Source: Candidatus Paceibacterota bacterium
Lineage (GTDB): Bacteria > Actinomycetota > Actinomycetes > Nanopelagicales > Nanopelagicaceae
Direction of reading: 5' to 3'
Assembly: GCA_035530615.1 (NCBI GenBank)
Contig: DATKUL010000001.1
Coordinates: forward strand, 124,001-188,000
Length of the DNA: 64,000 bases
Of this stretch, positions 24,469 through 31,307 are shown in pieces. Below the pieces are notes generated by a model. The model was not told the origin of the DNA and searched no databases. It was given only the letters and a program-made list of their open reading frames with translations. The position numbers and the translations under genes were made by a program. The stretch's first letter is position 1, and each line of letters opens with the position of its first letter.

Positions 24469-24921
24469 CTACTTAATGATCTGTGAAACTTGCTCGAAGA
24501 CATATGGGGTTGGTGCTTGTGCTGCATGTGGATGTTCGGCGCCGGCATAAACCTTGAGCTTGCTACCAACTGCACGTCCAAGCGTGTTCTTGGGCAACAT
24601 GCCCTTAATTGCCTTCTCGACCGCGCGGGTTGGGTGCTTAACCAAGAGGTCGCCATACACGGTCGACGTTAGGCCGCCTGGGAAACCAGAGTGTTGGTGC
24701 GCAAACTTCTGAGTTGTCTTTGAACCGGAGAGTGCAATCTTCTCTGCATTAATAACGATGACAAAGTCACCCATATCCATGTGAGGAGCGAAGGTTGGCT
24801 TGTGCTTGCCACGCAACAGCGCGGCCGCATGAGTAGCTAAGCGACCCAATACAACGCCTTCGGCGTCGATGACGTGCCACTTACGCACTGCATCGCCAGG
24901 CTTTGGACTATATGTACGCAC
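24469..24921 (-). CDS. rplM: 50S ribosomal protein L13
   Basis: This 150-residue protein carries the L13 core [31 protein letters not shown] and a GMLPKN loop. The start codon is GTG at 24921, within the expected [10 protein letters not shown] opening. It heads the rplM-rpsI-glmM-glmS-acpS-alr transcript. A promoter candidate with TTGACC and TACCCT boxes lies about 65-95 bases upstream. Confidence 0.96.
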
Positions 24922-24985
24922 GCTCTTGCCCTCGCTTCTACTTAATGACTTTTTCCATACGGCGCCCTCGTAGCGCAGGAGAGTA

Positions 24986-25015
24986 AGGGTACCTGTGTGG
25001 GTGTAGGTGGGTCAA
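24986..25015 (-). promoter_or_regulatory. rplM promoter candidate
   Basis: On the minus strand, TTGACC (25015-25010) and TACCCT (24991-24986) are separated by 18 bases. The same boxes and spacing appear upstream of rpsL (TTGACC-N18-TACGCT) and, with a 17-base spacer, upstream of groES, which raises confidence in all three. It overlaps the gene-poor end of the neighbouring barrel-protein gene. Confidence 0.6.
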
Positions 25016-25024
25016 AACAGGGAT

Positions 25025-26044
25025 TTATGGGCCCGAGAGACTGGTTTTGAGAGCCTGTTGAGCCGTAGAGAGCATGGAAATCGTCGATTCTGCGCCCTGA
25101 TTCAAGTTAGGACCTCGATCGTGGAGTCCGTCATAGCCTCCTCCGGTCTCAGGATCAAACATCGCAACGCCTCTGTCATTATTTCCTAGGAACCAGCTCC
25201 AAGCCAGTTGGACTTTCTCCGCCCAGCGCGCCTCTCCGGTGACTTGAAATGCCCTAGCGCATGCGTCTGCAATTGCTGCGATTTCAATCGGTTGCTGATC
25301 AAAGCTCATTCCCCCGTCATCTCCACGCCCATCAACTGGAGTCACGGAAAAATGGCCCGAACTCATCTCTATATCAAGCAGGAACTCCAGCATGGAAATT
25401 CCTTGGGCCAACGTTGGTGCGTCACCTAGTACCCATCCAATAAGTATGACCGCCTCGGCAACAGAGCCGTTGCTATAACTCAACCGCTTCTCCGGCCAGA
25501 TCCAATGTGTAGAGCTCGAGCGCGCCAATCGTTTCCGAGCTCCCTTTAAAACGCTTAGTGCATCGGAATTGTCTGGGTAGGCGAGCAGTAATTCGCCAGC
25601 ACCTAAACTCGCAAAAGAGAGCGACTTCAAATCAGGTGACGTAGTTCTAGCAAGCGTGTGAAATCCTTCAACTGCTCGAAGGCGTTGACCTGCTAGAGGC
25701 GCATGGGCAGCGGCAAATCCAAGTCCCCACATCGCCCGCCCCCACCAATCACCCCTGCCAGGTTGGTCCGCCCAATTTCCTTCTGAATCCATCCGGTTGT
25801 GGCAACCACCATCTTCAGAAACCGCTCTCAGTGTGAAATCCAAATAGAGTTCGAGCATCGCAAGTTCTATTGAATCAAGTTCTGGTTCGCGACAGAGCAA
25901 AATTAATCCTCGCGCAACATCATCAACACAGTATCCATGTTCGGGACGAGGCACATCCAGGAGTGCGTGTTCCTGTAGTCCAAATTTCGTAGTGAGACGC
26001 TTGAGGTGCAAGAACGTTGGCCGAGGAAATGTCTGACCAATCAT
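25025..26044 (-). CDS. Predicted (alpha/alpha)-barrel glycosidase-like protein
   Basis: This 339-residue soluble protein has no signal peptide. It shows repeated helical hairpins with Trp/Asp-rich motifs (GYCVDDVARGL, QPGRGDWWGRAMWGLGFA, WIWPEKRLSYSNG, MFDPETGGGYDGL), the look of an (alpha/alpha)6 toroid glycoside hydrolase or epimerase. I cannot assign a family. Its start overlaps the glycosyltransferase stop by four bases, so the two are made together. With the divergent GH130 gene and the phosphomannomutase-like gene it probably acts on a cytoplasmic oligosaccharide. Confidence 0.65.
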   Translation of the reverse strand: MIGQTFPRPTFLHLKRLTTKFGLQEHALLDVPRPEHGYCVDDVARGLILLCREPELDSIELAMLELYLDFTLRAVSEDGGCHNRMDSEGNWADQPGRGDWWGRAMWGLGFAAAHAPLAGQRLRAVEGFHTLARTTSPDLKSLSFASLGAGELLLAYPDNSDALSVLKGARKRLARSSSTHWIWPEKRLSYSNGSVAEAVILIGWVLGDAPTLAQGISMLEFLLDIEMSSGHFSVTPVDGRGDDGGMSFDQQPIEIAAIADACARAFQVTGEARWAEKVQLAWSWFLGNNDRGVAMFDPETGGGYDGLHDRGPNLNQGAESTISMLSTAQQALKTSLSGP

Positions 26045-27177
26045 GCTGCAGCCTCCGCCCGAATCAACGCCCTTGCAAGTTTCACATATCGAGCGGCAAC
26101 AGATGGCCAGAGAAGTTCGGCGCCAATTTCTTTTGCGCGCTGCGAGAACGCGGTAGCAGCAGCAGGATCTTGGATAATAACTCGGAGTGCTTGTGCAATC
26201 GCATCTGGATCATGGTGCGGTACAACTATTCCCACGTCATCTCCAAGAAGTTCAATGGCATGAGGAAAATTCGTTGCAACCACCGGGCGACCGGCTGTAA
26301 CCGCTTCAATAAGGACACCAGAAGTCATTTGCTCAGTTGAGTCATACGGGAGTAAGACCACAGATGCGGATGCGACGAGGACCGCGAGTTCGCCGTCACT
26401 CAAATAATCAGCATTGAGTTCTACTACGTCAGTCAGGTTGAGTTTCCCAATGCGCCGCCGAAGGCTCTCTCGGTACGCCTCCCCTTCGTTTTCAAGAACT
26501 TTAGGGTGCGTACGCCCAGCCACGAGATAGCGAGGAGCAGGCTCCAGGTCGCGAAGTCTGTCCATCGCGTCAATTCCCCATTCGATTCCTTTGCCAGGTC
26601 CGATCAATCCCCACGTAAGAATCAGTGGCCGACTGGCAAGATCTTCGGCCATTACATCCGGAAAAGCAGGAGCGCCATGAGGCAGGACAAAAATCTTGGA
26701 GGGTTCGACGCAATATTTTGAGACCAGCAGATCACGCGCAGTATTGCTCATCGTCACCACAGCTGAGGCGCTTTTAGTTAACTGCGTGAAAACTATCCGT
26801 TGATGCCATGTGGGAGTGATTAGGACCGTATGTACCACAACGATCGAGGGAATCCGCAAGCCTTTAAGGATGTCGAGAACCTCGTCACCGTCCACTCCAC
26901 CGTAAATACCAAATTCGTGTTGAATCACCGCAATGTCCATCGCGTTGAGTGCGGCGACCGCACTGGCGAGTGATTCAGAATTGCCCGCATGAAGAGTCCT
27001 AAGAATTTCAGGACTTACCGAACGTTCAGGCTCATTTGCGCCCTTATCTACTAGGCGCACTACCGAGGTTGTATGTCGTCCAAGATCACGTATTGCACTC
27101 ATGAGTGAGTTGCTAAAAGTGGCAATGCCACAGTGCGTCGGTGGATACGTACTGACGAATCCGAATCGAATACTCAT
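26041..27177 (-). CDS. Family 4-type glycosyltransferase
   Basis: This 378-residue protein has two Rossmann-type halves. The C-terminal half shows WGLIGPGKGIEWGIDAM and the retaining GT4 donor-site pattern EQMTSGVLIEAVTAGRPVVAT (the E-x7-E motif). The N-terminal half has FGFVSTYPPTHCGIATF and IQHEFGIYGG, typical of mannosyl- or glucosyl-transferases that build oligosaccharides. Donor and acceptor are not known. There are no membrane segments. It is transcribed away from the GH130 gene across a 244-base region. Confidence 0.85.
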   Translation of the reverse strand: MSIRFGFVSTYPPTHCGIATFSNSLMSAIRDLGRHTTSVVRLVDKGANEPERSVSPEILRTLHAGNSESLASAVAALNAMDIAVIQHEFGIYGGVDGDEVLDILKGLRIPSIVVVHTVLITPTWHQRIVFTQLTKSASAVVTMSNTARDLLVSKYCVEPSKIFVLPHGAPAFPDVMAEDLASRPLILTWGLIGPGKGIEWGIDAMDRLRDLEPAPRYLVAGRTHPKVLENEGEAYRESLRRRIGKLNLTDVVELNADYLSDGELAVLVASASVVLLPYDSTEQMTSGVLIEAVTAGRPVVATNFPHAIELLGDDVGIVVPHHDPDAIAQALRVIIQDPAAATAFSQRAKEIGAELLWPSVAARYVKLARALIRAEAAA

Positions 27178-27295
27178 GTTGGACGCCTTTCAGAGGATAG
27201 AGTCACCTTCCAGAACGCCGCGGTTTAGATATTCCCCCGCATTCAGTAACTTTTTGATACTAGACCTGCAATCTTCATTCTGGCTATTACGATCA

Positions 27296-27345
27296 AGCGT
27301 GCAACGACAACTCGCAGGAGTTACACAGAATCATGAGCGTGCAAC
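27296..27345. repeat. Direct repeat AGCGTGCAAC x2 in the GT4/GH130 promoter region
   Basis: AGCGTGCAAC occurs at 27296-27305 and 27336-27345, exactly 40 bases apart, close to four helical turns, so both copies would face the same side of the DNA. The copies lie in the divergent region between the glycosyltransferase and GH130 genes. No repressor gene is adjacent. Confidence 0.55.
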
Positions 27346-27421
27346 ATTCTTTTTCACAGCCAATCGCTGAGAACTCGACTCACCTACGCAGTAAGGTGGA
27401 AGTAACGAGAGGCAGATGCTC

Positions 27422-28897
27422 ATGATTGTAGAAACCGAATTACTTCGGCGAGTTGCGCCGGAAATTAAGGGGGACTCACGTCGAGTTATTGCCCGCTTAT
27501 ACCTGCCTGGACAAGAAATTACGGATGACGAAATTTCCCGAGCCGACGCAGTTATTGAGCGTATTATGGGCATGACCGACGAGGAAGTCTCCACCACTCT
27601 GGCCGAGACCATTGGACGCTTCGGCGATCGCCATCATGACCTCCGTGCCACACTCACCGAGAATTTCGGACACGTTGGGCACCGACTTCCGAGAGCGGTG
27701 GATGTCTCCGTGGAAAGACGGGAATTAATCGGCGCGTATTTCACCAAGGAGTACTCAATTGAAGGCGCCGCGCTCTTTAATCCATCCATATGCGTCCATC
27801 CCGATCAGACGGGCCTACAACCAGGCGAACTGCGATTTATTATGAGCGCGCGGGCTGTGGGAGAGGGTCACATTTCATCGATCGAATTTCGCACGGGAAT
27901 ACTCACTGCGAGCGAAGTCCGACTTGACGAGCCAGGAAAGCGACTCCTCACGGGTACTACTGTCCACACGACTATGACGTGTGACTTCCTCCGCGCCTCC
28001 CTGGAAGAATTCCGAGACGTAACTCCGGCAAAGGCGGTCTTTGATCTGCTTCCAGATACTTTTGATGCAAGCCACTTGGACAGTGCTATTGCTGCCGTGG
28101 AGAAGGATGAATTAACTCAAGGAAGTGCCCGAGAGATTATTAAAGATATGAAGTCGATCTTCGCCTGCAGCTATCGAGTGGATTTCCCGTATGACCGTCC
28201 AATTTCAGAACGCATTCTTTTCCCGACCTCCGTAGATGAATCCCAAGGGATGGAGGACGCGCGCTTCACCGCATTCGTCGACGAGACTGGGCTAGTCAAT
28301 TACTACGCGACCTACACCGCATACGATGGCTCTCGCGTAAAACCCCACCTCATTCAAACAGTGGATTTCCAAACTTTTGACATCACTCGTCTCATTGGTC
28401 CCGCCGCGAAAAACAAAGGAATGGCTCTTTTCCCTCGTCAAGTCAATGGGAAGTACCTTGCGCTTTCACGATGGGATCGAGAGAGCATAAGCGTCGCGAC
28501 CTCACCAGACACCAAGACCTGGGGTGATGCCACTGAAATCTGCATACCTGAACAGCCATGGGAGTTCATTCAACTTGGCAACTGTGGATCGCCAATCGAA
28601 ACCCCGGAAGGTTGGCTAGTGGTTACTCACGGCGTGGGGCCAATGCGTGAGTACGGTATCGGTGTAGTTCTACTAGATTTGGTTGATCCAACTATTGTGC
28701 TTGGCGTGCTGAGTCAACCACTTATTACTGCGGATATTGATGAGCGAGATGGATACACGCCAAATGTTGTTTACTCATGCGGTGCTTTGGTCCACGAACA
28801 AACCCTCGTTTTACCGTATGGCTACAGCGACGTAGCAATTCGATTTGCCTTCGTCGACCTTCCGGAATTAATGAATAGGCTCCGCACATCTCTCTGA
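27422..28897 (+). CDS. Glycoside hydrolase family 130-type protein (probable beta-mannoside phosphorylase or hydrolase)
   Basis: This 491-residue protein has a five-bladed beta-propeller pattern. It contains FNPSICVHPD near residue 119, GMEDARFTAF near residue 277 and later CGSPIETPEGWLVVTHG, typical of GH130 (DUF377). Known members phosphorolyse beta-mannosides to mannose-1-phosphate, though some hydrolyse. An N-terminal helical segment of ~100 residues precedes the propeller. Two ATGs, 27416 and 27422, are possible; 27422 has GAGAGG at good spacing. No signal peptide is present, so it acts inside the cell. It converges with the phosphomannomutase-like gene. Confidence 0.8.
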   Translation: MIVETELLRRVAPEIKGDSRRVIARLYLPGQEITDDEISRADAVIERIMGMTDEEVSTTLAETIGRFGDRHHDLRATLTENFGHVGHRLPRAVDVSVERRELIGAYFTKEYSIEGAALFNPSICVHPDQTGLQPGELRFIMSARAVGEGHISSIEFRTGILTASEVRLDEPGKRLLTGTTVHTTMTCDFLRASLEEFRDVTPAKAVFDLLPDTFDASHLDSAIAAVEKDELTQGSAREIIKDMKSIFACSYRVDFPYDRPISERILFPTSVDESQGMEDARFTAFVDETGLVNYYATYTAYDGSRVKPHLIQTVDFQTFDITRLIGPAAKNKGMALFPRQVNGKYLALSRWDRESISVATSPDTKTWGDATEICIPEQPWEFIQLGNCGSPIETPEGWLVVTHGVGPMREYGIGVVLLDLVDPTIVLGVLSQPLITADIDERDGYTPNVVYSCGALVHEQTLVLPYGYSDVAIRFAFVDLPELMNRLRTSL

Positions 28898-28910
28898 CTT
28901 CACTTGGAAT

Positions 28911-29654
28911 TTACGCTTCCCACCCAACTATCGCTTCGATAACCCGCTTTGTTTCATTGTGATCTCTTACTTGGATAGAGATGACACCTGCCTCCTTGAC
29001 TGGATAATCATTGCCACCGGGGAAAACAGCATCTCCGACGAAGAGCATTTCCGCCCTATCTATATGAAGAATCTCTTCAAGTTTTGCAATCCCATATGCC
29101 TTGTCGATACCGGGTCGCGTGACATCAATGGAGGTCGTACCTCCTAGACGGACCGAAAACTCCGGAATTAGTTCCGCCAGAAGAGTCTGCATCTTCGTTC
29201 GCTTTGCAAAGTCCGGATCCCACTCCTTCTTTTCAGCAATCGGTGCTGATTGTCCCAAGGCGGAGAAAGTAATTTGGCTCCCTCGATCCTCAATAATTTC
29301 ACCCCACACTTTCTTAGGTGCAAGTTCAAGGGAAATCATGGCCATATTTAATGCACTTTTTATCTGCTCTTTCTGACCATCAGAAAGAGCGTCCGAATAG
29401 ATTTCCTCCCATGTCAAGGAGAATCTATAAAATTTTGTTCCGCATGTTGGTAATAAGTACAAGTTTGAGAAAGCATTCGTGTCAAACCCTGATGTAAGCA
29501 ACTGCTTCTGGAATTGCGGCCAATCGCCACCCGAAATCACCGCCACTTTTGTCATTGATAGGAGGGAATTAAGTAGAACAATCATCTCAGGGTCCACCGC
29601 TGATTTACTTTCGGCGAGAGTTCCATCGAGATCAAAGACGACGAGTTTCTTCAT
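28911..29654 (-). CDS. HAD-IIB phosphatase/mutase of the phosphomannomutase family
   Basis: This 247-residue protein has HAD motif I FDLDGTLAES (Asp-8 and Asp-10), motif II ISGGD (Ser-41), motif III Lys-185, and motif IV VGDAVFPGGNDYPV (Asp-208, Asn-215, Asp-216). The GD-x4-GGND form and the cap segment EDRGSQITFSALGQ resemble eukaryotic-type phosphomannomutases, which interconvert mannose-1- and mannose-6-phosphate; a plain sugar phosphatase is the alternative. GTG precedes the ATG at 29654, and AGG sits eight bases before the ATG. The gene lies next to GH130, whose product could be mannose-1-phosphate. Confidence 0.8.
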   Translation of the reverse strand: MKKLVVFDLDGTLAESKSAVDPEMIVLLNSLLSMTKVAVISGGDWPQFQKQLLTSGFDTNAFSNLYLLPTCGTKFYRFSLTWEEIYSDALSDGQKEQIKSALNMAMISLELAPKKVWGEIIEDRGSQITFSALGQSAPIAEKKEWDPDFAKRTKMQTLLAELIPEFSVRLGGTTSIDVTRPGIDKAYGIAKLEEILHIDRAEMLFVGDAVFPGGNDYPVKEAGVISIQVRDHNETKRVIEAIVGWEA

Positions 29655-29661
29655 CACAAAA

Positions 29662-29700
29662 CCTAACTAATAATGTTCTGAAGCCAATTTATTGGTTAGG
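29662..29700 (-). terminator. Possible terminator after the ABC-F gene
   Basis: On the minus strand CCTAAC and GTTAGG are 27 bases apart and enclose a CCAATAAATTGG hairpin; TTTTG follows. It starts just after the ABC-F stop and ends before the phosphomannomutase-like gene. The weak A/T pairing makes this a moderate call. Confidence 0.4.
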
Positions 29701-29705
29701 TAAGA

Positions 29706-31307
29706 CTAGTGCTCGAAGACTGGTTCTGGACTCTCGAATACCTTGCCATTTGCCCCAAAAATCAGATAGCGCGTGAAGCCTCGAGTAAACCAGCGATCAT
29801 GAGTCACCGAGACCACCGTCCCGACGTACTGCGCCAAGGCCGTCTCTAAACTTTCAGCACTTGCGAGATCCAAGTTATCTGTCGGCTCATCAAGAAGCAA
29901 AAGTGTCGATCCAGATAACTCGAGAAGAAGAACTTGAAAGCGCGCCTGCTGGCCACCGGAGAGAGAGGAGAATTTCTGCTCGGCCTGGTTATGTATTTCA
30001 TACCGACGCAGAACACTCTTTGCAGGGCCTAATTGAAGAGAATAATTCTCCCAGAGAAGTTCGAGCAGAGTCTTATTGAAGAACTCCGGATGGGTATGAG
30101 TCTGCGCAAAATAACCCGCTTTGACGCGAGCTCCTAATTTGAACTCACCGGAGTACTTCACCGCTTTATCGCCGGAAATCATCCGCAGAAAGTGGGACTT
30201 GCCAGTTCCATTCTTTCCGAGCACCGCAACACGATCGCCAAAGAAGATTTCGAAATTGAAAGGCTCAGTAAGTCCCGTAAGTGAGAGGTTCTCCATGGTC
30301 AGTGCCCGGACACCTGTACGCCCCCCGCGCAATCCCACCTGCACATCTTGTTCAATCGGAGGCGCTTCCGGTGGACCGACCTCTTCAAATTTGCGTAGGC
30401 GTGTCTGCATAGCGCGATATTTTGACGCCATATCCGGGCTACTCGCGGCCTGCCATTGCAAAGTGCGGACAAGCTCTTTGAGGCGATCATGTTCCTGTTC
30501 CCAACGGAGTAAAATTTCTGCAAATCGCTCGTTTCGAGCTTTTCGCGCGTCATGCCACGTTGAGAATTTTCCGCCATGAACCCAGGCAGTATTCCCATTG
30601 GCGCCTTGCTCAAGAGTGACAATTTTGTTGGCGGTGCGATCAAGAAGTTCGCGATCGTGGCTGACGAATAGGACAGTCTTCTTTGTCTCGGTAATCACTT
30701 CTTCAAGCCAGCGTTTGGATGGAACATCCAGATAGTTATCTGGCTCATCAAGGAGCAGGACTTCTTCCGGCCCTTGTAAGAGGGCACGCAGAACCAACTT
30801 CTTCTGTTCTCCTCCTGAAAGTGTGTTCACACTCCGCTGCGCAACTTCGTCAAAGGATTTGCCGAGTGACTCGGTGCAGCAGACATCCCAGATAACTTCG
30901 AAGTCATACCCTCCTGCATCGCCCCAATTCACGAGGGCTTGAGCGTATGCCATCTGGTCACGCTCTTCGTTTCGTGCATTCATTAATTCTTCGCTTGCCT
31001 CTACAGCGGCGGCGGCATCCCTGATTCGTTTGGGTGCCACTGAGATAAGTAAGTCGCGAACATTCGTGTCATCTCGTACAGAGCCGATAAATTGGCGCAT
31101 CACTCCGAGACCGCCAGAGATAGAAATAGCACCTGATTCTGGTTGAATATCCCCAGAAATCATGCGTATGAGCGTGGTTTTGCCCGATCCATTGGCACCG
31201 ATCAGTGCCACCTTTGCACCGTCACCGACTCGGAAATTGACGTCGTTAAGGAGCACTCGGCCATCGGAGAGAGAAAACTCCACGGCATTTACATCAATGT
31301 GACCCAT
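29706..31307 (-). CDS. ABC-F family ATPase
   Basis: This 533-residue soluble protein has two ABC domains. The first has Walker A GANGSGKT and signature LSGGEQKK; the second has GKNGTGKS and LSGGQQAR. A charged linker near residues 225-330 (RWEQEHDRLKELVRT, MQTRLRKFEE) is the P-site tRNA interaction motif of ABC-F proteins. There are no membrane segments. Such proteins act on the ribosome as translation factors (EttA-like) or protect it from antibiotics; the subfamily cannot be decided here. It starts at the TAATG that ends truA, so it is coupled to the rpoA-rplQ-truA transcript. Confidence 0.88.
   Translation of the reverse strand: MGHIDVNAVEFSLSDGRVLLNDVNFRVGDGAKVALIGANGSGKTTLIRMISGDIQPESGAISISGGLGVMRQFIGSVRDDTNVRDLLISVAPKRIRDAAAAVEASEELMNARNEERDQMAYAQALVNWGDAGGYDFEVIWDVCCTESLGKSFDEVAQRSVNTLSGGEQKKLVLRALLQGPEEVLLLDEPDNYLDVPSKRWLEEVITETKKTVLFVSHDRELLDRTANKIVTLEQGANGNTAWVHGGKFSTWHDARKARNERFAEILLRWEQEHDRLKELVRTLQWQAASSPDMASKYRAMQTRLRKFEEVGPPEAPPIEQDVQVGLRGGRTGVRALTMENLSLTGLTEPFNFEIFFGDRVAVLGKNGTGKSHFLRMISGDKAVKYSGEFKLGARVKAGYFAQTHTHPEFFNKTLLELLWENYSLQLGPAKSVLRRYEIHNQAEQKFSSLSGGQQARFQVLLLELSGSTLLLLDEPTDNLDLASAESLETALAQYVGTVVSVTHDRWFTRGFTRYLIFGANGKVFESPEPVFEH

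Follow-up and report, generated by a model that had tools for sequence, protein, structure and literature searches.

Four adjacent genes in the window, as we call the whole 64,000-nucleotide stretch of DNA analysed here, encode a glycosyltransferase (GT4), a barrel protein (BAR), a glycoside hydrolase family 130 protein (GH130) and a HAD protein. An earlier note on this DNA had proposed that the set makes and breaks a cytoplasmic mannoside, and the question is whether four genes of such different families serve one pathway.

Layout of the four genes

BAR (positions 25025-26044, minus strand), a 339-aa (alpha/alpha)6-barrel protein that is glycosidase-like and lies outside known families, shares 4 nt (26041-26044) with the open reading frame of GT4 (26041-27177, minus strand), a 378-aa GT-B family 4 glycosyltransferase (PF00534/PF13692). 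A divergent intergenic region of 238 nt (27178-27415), which we presume to be the promoter region, separates GT4 from the long GH130 (27416-28897, plus strand), a 493-aa predicted beta-mannoside phosphorylase of the beta-1,2 type (PF04041). GH130 converges with HAD (28911-29654, minus strand), a putative HAD-IIB hexose-phosphate mutase (PF03332) for which ATG 29654 and GTG 29657 are both possible start codons, and the two stop codons lie 13 nt apart. This agrees with the earlier description of a glycosyltransferase coupled to a barrel protein, a divergent GH130 and a converging HAD, and conservation of the four frames across phyla means that they are not chance frames. A consensus scan of 27178-27415 found no promoter-like site, and promoter and terminator scans gave fewer sites than shuffled sequences. 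By eye, the N-termini of all four proteins show no hydrophobic leader, as expected from the claim that none carries a signal peptide.

Phosphorylase features of GH130

GH130 matches PF04041 with 92.7 bits (Pfam cut-off 26). Against the NCBIfam beta-1,2-mannobiose phosphorylases NF050092 and NF052550 it scores 138 and 125 bits, below their curated cut-offs of 550 and 450 bits, and against the BT3780 beta-1,2-mannosidase 18 bits; by these scores it is predicted to be of the same kind as the two phosphorylase families, not a member of exactly either. When its profile was compared with the PDB, Teth514_1788 was found at 1e-44 and BT3780 at 6e-10. The AF2 model (pLDDT 90.6) gave Z scores of 36-37 with beta-1,2 phosphorylases, 32-33 with hydrolases and 22 with the GT108 enzyme MPT-4 of Leishmania, and its nearest solved structure is 5b0q (Z 37.0, 288 residues, rmsd 2.0). 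The model and PF04041 both match the five-bladed propeller of GH130 structures, to which the window protein adds an N-terminal helical segment (42-108) and a helical insert (189-250).

Across 24 of 24 GH130 sequences, N122, E280, D281, R283, K334, R352, H405 and D472 are invariant. D281 is the catalytic Asp, and N122 and D472 are the substrate Asn and Asp; D281 and D472 align with Teth514_1788, and N122 lies outside the aligned part. R352 and H405, and also R283 and K334, align with the phosphorylases, in keeping with basic phosphate-binding residues in place of the Glu pair of hydrolases, whose positions were matched by spacing only. Residue roles (catalytic Asp, preceding Glu, beta-1,2 Lys, nucleophile-side Arg/His) were taken from PMC4599007; the marks of beta-1,2 specificity given there and in the relevant passages of PMC4264767, a Glu before the acid Asp and a Lys (Lys199 in BT3780), are both kept in all 24 sequences as E280 and K334.

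Residues, profile scores and predicted structure thus agree with the phosphorylase type claimed before, and they place GH130 nearest to the beta-1,2-mannoside phosphorylases, as far as sequence and model can tell. A hydrolytic subfamily, which the earlier note had named as speaking against its reading, was rejected on the NCBIfam scores, the PDB profile comparison and the structural Z scores. With GT108 the structural match is distant. In a quick tree of 74 long GH130 sequences and one short outgroup on a very long branch, used only for the actinobacterial grouping, all 18 actinobacterial rows grouped together with support 100; the tree contains no hydrolases and one plasmid row (Ilyobacter), other plasmid loci having fallen under the score or length limits.

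Mutase features of HAD and the glucose alternative

HAD matches the phosphomannomutase (PMM) model PF03332 with 47.1 bits (gathering cut-off 22.4) and the HAD-IIB model TIGR01484 with 80 bits (cut-off 41.8). Its nearest solved relative is the alpha-phosphoglucomutase (alpha-PGM) of L. lactis, 4bnd (E 5e-46, nearly the whole length), and eukaryotic PMM proteins follow at E 1e-20 to 1e-9. The motifs DxDGT and GGND are invariant in 10 of 10 homologues, the GD-x4-GGND motif reported for the window protein being present as GDAVFPGGND. HAD therefore belongs to the phosphomannomutase/alpha-phosphoglucomutase kind, which sustains the proposed resemblance to phosphomannomutase; the alternative of an unrelated phosphatase, raised as a refutation, came out otherwise, with mutase-kind proteins as the nearest relatives. 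We file it under this kind and not as a PMM proper because Gln136, present in all ten homologues as in 4bnd, replaces Arg141 of PMM2, which we take to be the substrate-phosphate Arg at that position.

The same Gln means that HAD may prefer glucose phosphates, and a glucose-based cycle can be drawn, in which HAD would be an alpha-PGM, GT4 would use UDP- or ADP-glucose, and the Man-1-P made by GH130 would be incidental or would come from a Man-Glc heteroglycoside. The closer match of HAD to 4bnd than to any PMM fits such a cycle, and passages of PMC8808168 report PGM activity in PMM enzymes too, for example Plasmodium HAD5. Nevertheless we consider a glucose cycle improbable. The genome of the window has three PGM_PMM genes, one of them a 579-aa frame, which leaves no need for an extra glucose mutase; the companions of the module are mannose-specific genes (PMI, ManC, PMM) and not glucose genes; and in Nitrobacter a GH65::betaPGM fusion adjoining HAD-GH130 already covers glucose. 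Eleven of 12 other same-genus genomes searched also have three PGM_PMM genes, and one has two. For this genome, a housekeeping role of HAD was rejected given its three PF02878 genes and the lack of HAD in 16 of 21 same-genus genomes.

Regarding mannose supply, the genome of the window encodes a cupin mannose-6-phosphate isomerase (PMI) and an Rv3264c-type mannose-1-phosphate guanylyltransferase (395 bits, below the cut-off of 440); searches of this genome for type I PMI, bifunctional PGI and the ManC beta-helix were negative. Glycogen synthesis (glgC/glgA) is encoded as well, so the cell would not depend on having another reserve.

GT4, its barrel partner and the linkage problem

GT4 matches PF00534 (64.6 bits) and PF13692 (63.2 bits), both over the cut-off, and the PDB structures nearest its profile are MshA and the GDP-mannose enzymes PimA/PimB. 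GT4 is probably GDP-mannose dependent, because ManC and PMI genes neighbour the module elsewhere. The motif EX7E, which we take to be that expected of the retaining GT4 family, is altered: the first Glu is Gln in 15 of 15 GT4 sequences and the second is Tyr in 10, giving QX7E in 5/15 and QX7Y in 10/15, and the chemistry of GT4 is therefore not assured.

Pfam and NCBIfam models at E<=1 include none that matches BAR. Its AF2 model (pLDDT 91.3) is an (alpha/alpha) barrel, whose nearest solved chain is 7tem (YPO2471, Z 36.5), followed by GH9-like exo-glucosaminidases (Z 29.5) and AGE epimerases (Z about 27). Over 24 barrels, D41, D42, D99, D290, D305 and E319 are invariant, and H26 is the sole invariant His; the AGE family is, we assume, marked by a catalytic His pair. 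A true AGE neighbour matches PF07221 at 5e-52, and BAR has no such match at E<=1; on two rhizobial plasmids a separate AGE protein stands alongside the module. We accordingly dropped the suggestion that the barrel protein epimerises the mannoside. The fold of GH76 mannanases also resembles BAR (Z about 25), with no match in sequence.

A textbook retaining GT4 enzyme acting on GDP-alpha-mannose yields alpha-mannosides, and GH130 phosphorolyses beta-mannosides; because alpha links would be made and beta links cut, the two enzymes may not share one compound. This problem would be resolved if GH130 were mainly a synthase that runs in reverse: GT4 would supply an alpha-mannosyl primer, and GH130 would extend it with beta-mannose taken from Man-1-P or another mannoside. 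Uhgb_MS ("mannoside synthase") is indeed among the nearest solved structures of the model (Z 36). On the other hand, millimolar Pi in cells usually favours phosphorolysis. The Leishmania GT108 enzymes are described in passages of PMC8950772 as dual transferase/phosphorylases acting on mannogen, yet their match to GH130 is far weaker (Z 22). On balance we regard a mainly synthetic GH130 as doubtful.

Conservation of the gene set

GT4 and BAR form a single fused protein, with BAR as the C-terminal half, in 36 of the 68 related loci. Of the 17 plasmid loci that have a long GH130, 11 show this fusion; 14 of the 17 were drawn from the 30 listed matches, and L158, L160 and L162 were chosen for their HAD or BAR matches. 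The unannotated L171 was judged from translated ORFs only. In the genus, 5 of 21 genomes have HAD, these five are also the ones with the long GH130, and the remaining 16 lack both (Fisher 5e-5, relatedness not corrected). Under phylum-wide sampling, HAD was found in only 2 of 14 GH130 genomes (Fisher 0.02). It is present in 3 of the 68 loci, all same-genus, and most Desulfobacterota loci lack it. PMI, GDP-mannose pyrophosphorylase and classical phosphomannomutase share gene rows with the module on other replicons. On the Sphingomonas plasmid pBAR3, ManC, PMI, GT4::BAR, GH130 and phosphomannomutase are consecutive, although the annotated PMI there has no Pfam or NCBIfam match at the thresholds used. 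In 9 of the 68 loci a PMI cupin is joined in one protein to a further GT4 (5 of the 9 checked with Pfam).

Other clusters show parts of the set. A cupin PMI, HAD and a short GH130 follow one another in an actinomycete cluster (L169), GH130 adjoins HAD with PMI also present in L158, HAD overlaps a short GH130 gene in L159, and L097, L160 and L172 hold the whole set within one island each. On many sphingomonad plasmids HAD lies beside a metal ATPase and not GH130. Genes for Hsp20, USP, GroEL or DnaK are near the module in several cases. The fusions, the shared presence of HAD and GH130 and the mannose genes in the same rows support the view that the four genes belong together as one unit.

Two functions could still lie side by side and share only mannose pools: GH130 and HAD, perhaps with PMI, would be a salvage route to Man-6-P for beta-mannosides that are taken up or arise from turnover, and the alpha-linked glycoside or glycolipid made by GT4 and BAR would have nothing to do with it. 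The stereochemistry (GT4 retaining, GH130 inverting) is compatible with this, as are the Bacteroidota loci, where an SBP and two permeases accompany the long GH130, genome G005, which has GT4 and BAR and lacks GH130 and HAD, and a Thermoanaerobacter cluster that its authors read, in passages of PMC4264767, as salvage for GDP-mannose, with GH130 phosphorylases proposed to supply GDP-mannose to a GT4 mannosyltransferase. However, 12 of the 13 other actinobacterial loci retain GT4, BAR and the long GH130 as a group; rhizobia, sphingomonads and Ilyobacter keep the trio with no sugar importer among the listed neighbours, and none was seen by eye next to the module in four same-genus loci. Two separate functions are thus unlikely.

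A candidate mannose-1-phosphate cycle

The four genes are likely to form one functional module, a cytoplasmic mannose-1-phosphate cycle. In this cycle, the guanylyltransferase would make GDP-mannose from Man-1-P, GT4 with BAR would use it to assemble a mannoside inside the cell or lengthen an existing one, and BAR might edit or limit the product. GH130 with inorganic phosphate would then release terminal beta-mannosyl units as alpha-Man-1-P with no ATP spent, HAD would interconvert Man-1-P and Man-6-P, and the PMI encoded elsewhere in the genome would connect Man-6-P with fructose-6-phosphate and so with glycolysis. The mannoside formed in this way probably serves as a reserve or protects against stress. 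What stands of the earlier make-and-break proposal is the unit, the phosphorylase type of GH130 and the mutase kind of HAD, and the mannose genes in the same rows tie the set directly to mannose; the donor, the direction of flow, the product and the part of BAR are suggested by these in turn.

A bolder version, possible though tentative, is a mannogen-like beta-mannan (or beta-mannosyl-capped) reserve across many phyla, in which the altered active site of GT4::barrel would form an unusual linkage and a new subfamily of long GH130 would mobilise it through Man-1-P, an ATP-saving survival kit carried on plasmids and stress islands in parallel to glycogen.

If the cycle holds, bacteria would have a mannose store, or a stress mannoside, that is broken down by phosphorolysis and can be recognised by a gene signature of GT4::barrel, long GH130, mutase and PMI, which recurs in Actinomycetota, Desulfobacterota, Planctomycetota, Bacteroidota, Kiritimatiellota, Spirochaetota, Fusobacteriota and Alphaproteobacteria. 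The cycle would also explain genes in stress islands of conjugative plasmids that are annotated as "glycoside hydrolase family 130" or "HAD-IIB hydrolase" and have no assigned role. The barrel family of YPO2471 would gain a partner and a pathway, and a bacterial counterpart of Leishmania mannogen could be tested for the first time.

Relation to known systems

Our search of the open-access literature found precedents and no paper on this gene module; the nearest are the Thermoanaerobacter GH130/GT4 cluster and Leishmania mannogen. In Thermoanaerobacter sp. X-514, Teth514_1786-1796 encode an ABC importer, a GH5, two GH130s, a guanylyltransferase and a GT4, according to passages of PMC4264767. 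The two beta-1,2-mannoside phosphorylases, the GDP-mannose guanylyltransferase and GT4 in one cytoplasmic pathway resemble the module, whereas the importer and GH5 set it apart, and the passages describing it mention neither a barrel partner nor a HAD mutase. Its GH130s, at about 300 aa, also lack the N-terminal helical segment, and 281-283 of the 493 residues of the window GH130 were aligned.

Leishmania mannogen, as passages of PMC8950772 present it, is a cytoplasmic beta-mannan handled by five-bladed propeller enzymes via Man-1-P, like the proposed cycle; in Leishmania the propeller enzymes are GDP-mannose dependent, whereas the bacterial module has GT4::barrel, and the structural match is Z 22 for GT108 against 37. 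HAD aligns nearly end to end with L. lactis alpha-PGM (4bnd) and eukaryotic PMM2, sharing the GGND motif and the cap, and differs in its setting beside GH130 and PMI. BAR shares the fold and the invariant DD..AR and GAES motifs with YPO2471 (7tem), but that protein is single-domain and labelled "putative exported protein", with a title naming no function, while BAR appears cytoplasmic by eye and is fused or coupled to GT4. By analogy, the proposed cycle would follow the glycogen cycle (GlgC/GlgA and glucan phosphorylase) in building from a nucleotide sugar, degrading by phosphorolysis and passing through a mutase to hexose-6-P, with mannose as its sugar and enzymes of other families.

Genomic setting of the module

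The window is a 64-kb part of an actinobacterial genome of 2.16 Mb, and in it the module is flanked by rplM/rpsI on one side and an ABC-F/truA/rplQ stretch on the other (gene names by eye). The gene of the (α/α)6-barrel protein BAR (25025-26044, minus strand) starts within the stop codon of the family 4 glycosyltransferase gene GT4 (26041-27177, minus strand), and this ATGA overlap suggests that their translation is coupled. The only GH130 gene of the genome (27416-28897, plus strand) and the gene of the mutase HAD (28911-29657, minus strand, ATG at 29654) follow. The ribosomal-protein gene surroundings (24469-31307 in the window) are common to the window and G017, whereas in three further genomes (G013, G015, G018) the module adjoins Hsp20/USP genes; thus, the module has changed its genomic place.

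Three relatives of the same genus have Hsp20 and USP genes (identified by Pfam for L015 only, by likeness for L016 and L017) between GT4/BAR and HAD; sphingomonad islands carry extra genes for DnaK, GrpE, Hsp20, ClpB, GroEL, Dps, USP, acetate kinase and PPK2. These stress and energy neighbors point to a role in survival under stress or low energy, which a reserve or protective solute as product would fit. Bacteroidota loci instead carry SBP and permeases, which makes it likely that external mannosides are salvaged there.

Predicted activities of GH130 and HAD

Pfam and NCBIfam place the protein in GH130, nearest the β-1,2-mannobiose phosphorylases, whose NCBIfam models score far over the β-1,2-mannosidase model. 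Sequence similarity to solved enzymes extends over residues 266-490 only; in the AF2 model (pLDDT 90.6), by contrast, the propeller is complete and is joined by an N-terminal helical segment (42-108) and a helical insert (189-250). The top structural matches of the model are the Listeria and Thermoanaerobacter β-1,2-mannoside phosphorylases (Z 36-37), compared with Z 32.5-34 for β-1,4 phosphorylases and Z 32-33 for hydrolases. Both comparisons set GH130 nearer the phosphorylases than the hydrolases, in keeping with the phosphorylase of the cytoplasmic mannoside turnover loop that the earlier note proposed. The acid Asp281, Glu280, Lys334, Arg352, His405, Asn122 and Asp472 are invariant among 24 sequences from several phyla. 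Read by the rules for phosphorylase and β-1,2 assignment in PMC4599007, and by further rules in PMC4264767, they form a predicted β-1,2-type phosphorylase pattern, R352 and H405 being matched to the hydrolase Glu227 and Glu268 places by spacing from the acid rather than by alignment.

The closest solved relative of HAD is the L. lactis α-phosphoglucomutase 4bnd (E 5e-46), followed by eukaryotic phosphomannomutases (PMMs; E 1e-20 to 1e-9), and ten homologues share the DLDGT and GGND motifs. At the position of PMM2 Arg141, Gln is found in 10/10 homologues and also in 4bnd. HAD is therefore predicted to be a mutase of the PMM/α-phosphoglucomutase kind, whose sugar preference sequence does not settle; the kinship proposed in the earlier note stands.

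GT4 and BAR

Among PDB entries, MshA and the GDP-mannose-dependent PimA and PimB come closest to a profile of 15 GT4 sequences. The EX7E motif of GT4 enzymes is altered in these 15 sequences, since its first Glu is Gln in 15/15 and its second is kept in 5/15 and Tyr in 10/15. BAR cannot be placed in any known family. By fold it comes closest to YPO2471 (7tem; Z 36.5, profile match E 2e-26), then to GH9-like exo-glucosaminidases (Z 29.5), AGE epimerases (Z about 27) and GH76 (Z about 25). YPO2471 is a Yersinia pestis BAR-family protein of solved structure, labelled exported and with no function named. The invariant residues of BAR are mainly acidic, aromatic and amide, with DD close to the N-terminus and GAES close to the C-terminus, a placing that resembles the catalytic acids of GH9; a glycosidase-like or transglycosylating role is thus more likely than the epimerisation once considered for the barrel. 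On rhizobial plasmids, a true AGE epimerase gene comes right after GT4::BAR-GH130 (L096:8346-9479, L176:9349-10479; Pfam run for L096 only).

Co-occurrence of the four families

Among 68 loci found through GH130, many of which stop at contig ends, a long GH130 ORF (>150 bits) is present in 62, BAR in 53 and GT4 (>100 bits) in 38, and a single ORF joins GT4 and BAR in 36. This GT4::BAR fusion occurs in 11 of the 17 plasmid loci with long GH130; it is fragmented in S. paeninsulae and split in Croceicoccus. Long GH130 was found in 14/396 sampled genomes of the phylum, and in a quick tree the actinobacterial GH130s group together (n=18, support 100), with the four-member group of the window's genus nested inside. 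GT4 and BAR adjoin long GH130 in 12 of the 13 other phylum genomes (the 13th locus lies close to a contig end), and HAD occurs in 2 of the 14 GH130 genomes (7/396 overall; Fisher 0.02). Two same-genus genomes carry a second GT4+BAR pair (G015, L017; G018, L128), which abuts HAD in G015. Beside long GH130, a cassette of SIS, PIG-L deacetylase, GT4 and GH100/GDE_C-like barrel recurs in Desulfobacterota and one Bacteroidota MAG (L086, L091, L049, L063, L089, L029).

The same 41 relatives were searched for GH130, HAD and BAR. In the 21 same-genus genomes, long GH130 is present in five and HAD in exactly those five (Fisher 5e-5, kinship not corrected), with BAR in the five plus G005; G011 shows no more than a remote match to GH130 (35% identity). 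G005 keeps GT4+BAR and lacks GH130 and HAD. A HicA/HicB-like toxin-antitoxin pair (by eye; L157:1020-1664) stands next to its GT4+BAR, where relatives carry GH130 and HAD. In the second HAD+GH130 phylum genome (G387), cupin mannose-6-phosphate isomerase (PMI), HAD and short GH130 lie 11.6 kb from GT4-BAR-long GH130; encapsulin shell and EncFtn-like ferritin genes are directly upstream of the former (L169:17064-19999).

On plasmids, HAD is near long GH130 in 4/17 loci (L097, L158, L160, L172). In Nitrobacter, the genes of HAD and a short GH130 overlap and are flanked by a GH65::β-PGM fusion and phosphoketolase; as Glc-1-P from GH65 has its own mutase there, Man-1-P would be left for HAD. The position of HAD directly after a metal P-type ATPase on many sphingomonad plasmids counts against the GH130 tie. 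The HAD gene there overlaps the heavy-metal ATPase gene end by 4 nt (L161:9503-12750).

A probable mannose-1-phosphate cycle

It seems probable that GT4, BAR, GH130 and HAD serve a mannose-1-phosphate cycle. HAD or PMM would interconvert Man-6-P and Man-1-P, a guanylyltransferase would convert Man-1-P to GDP-mannose, GT4 with BAR would build the mannoside, and GH130 with Pi would return Man-1-P. Of the 17 plasmid loci, nine include PMI, mannose-1-phosphate guanylyltransferase or both within the stretch (L094, L095, L097, L158, L160, L172, L173, L174, L177). The last, the Sphingomonas plasmid pBAR3, reads groES, groEL, guanylyltransferase, PMI, GT4::BAR, GH130 and PMM, with gene ends overlapping or almost touching from PMI through PMM (PMM and guanylyltransferase Pfam-confirmed, PMI from annotation only). 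A second GT4 with a MannoseP_isomer cupin domain occurs in 9/68 loci (L031, L051, L060, L072, L077, L081, L083, L086, L091; 5/9 checked by Pfam). Searches of the window's genome gave a cupin PMI, three PGM_PMM genes and an Rv3264c-type guanylyltransferase that scores just under the cut-off, but no type I PMI, PGI_C or ManC β-helix.

The weak step of the cycle is the linkage, because canonical GT4 retains the α configuration and GH130 cuts β. Either this GT4, with its altered motif, departs from the canonical type, or the β link is made by GH130 or some other enzyme, or GT4 and GH130 work on different compounds. The boldest form of the cycle, a bacterial mannogen-like reserve, is a tentative suggestion. 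A search of the open-access literature turned up no description of GT4::barrel together with long GH130. The precedents found are the Thermoanaerobacter cluster (PMC4264767) and the GT108 mannogen cycle (described in PMC8950772); Leishmania GT108 is a weaker structural match to the GH130 model (Z 22).
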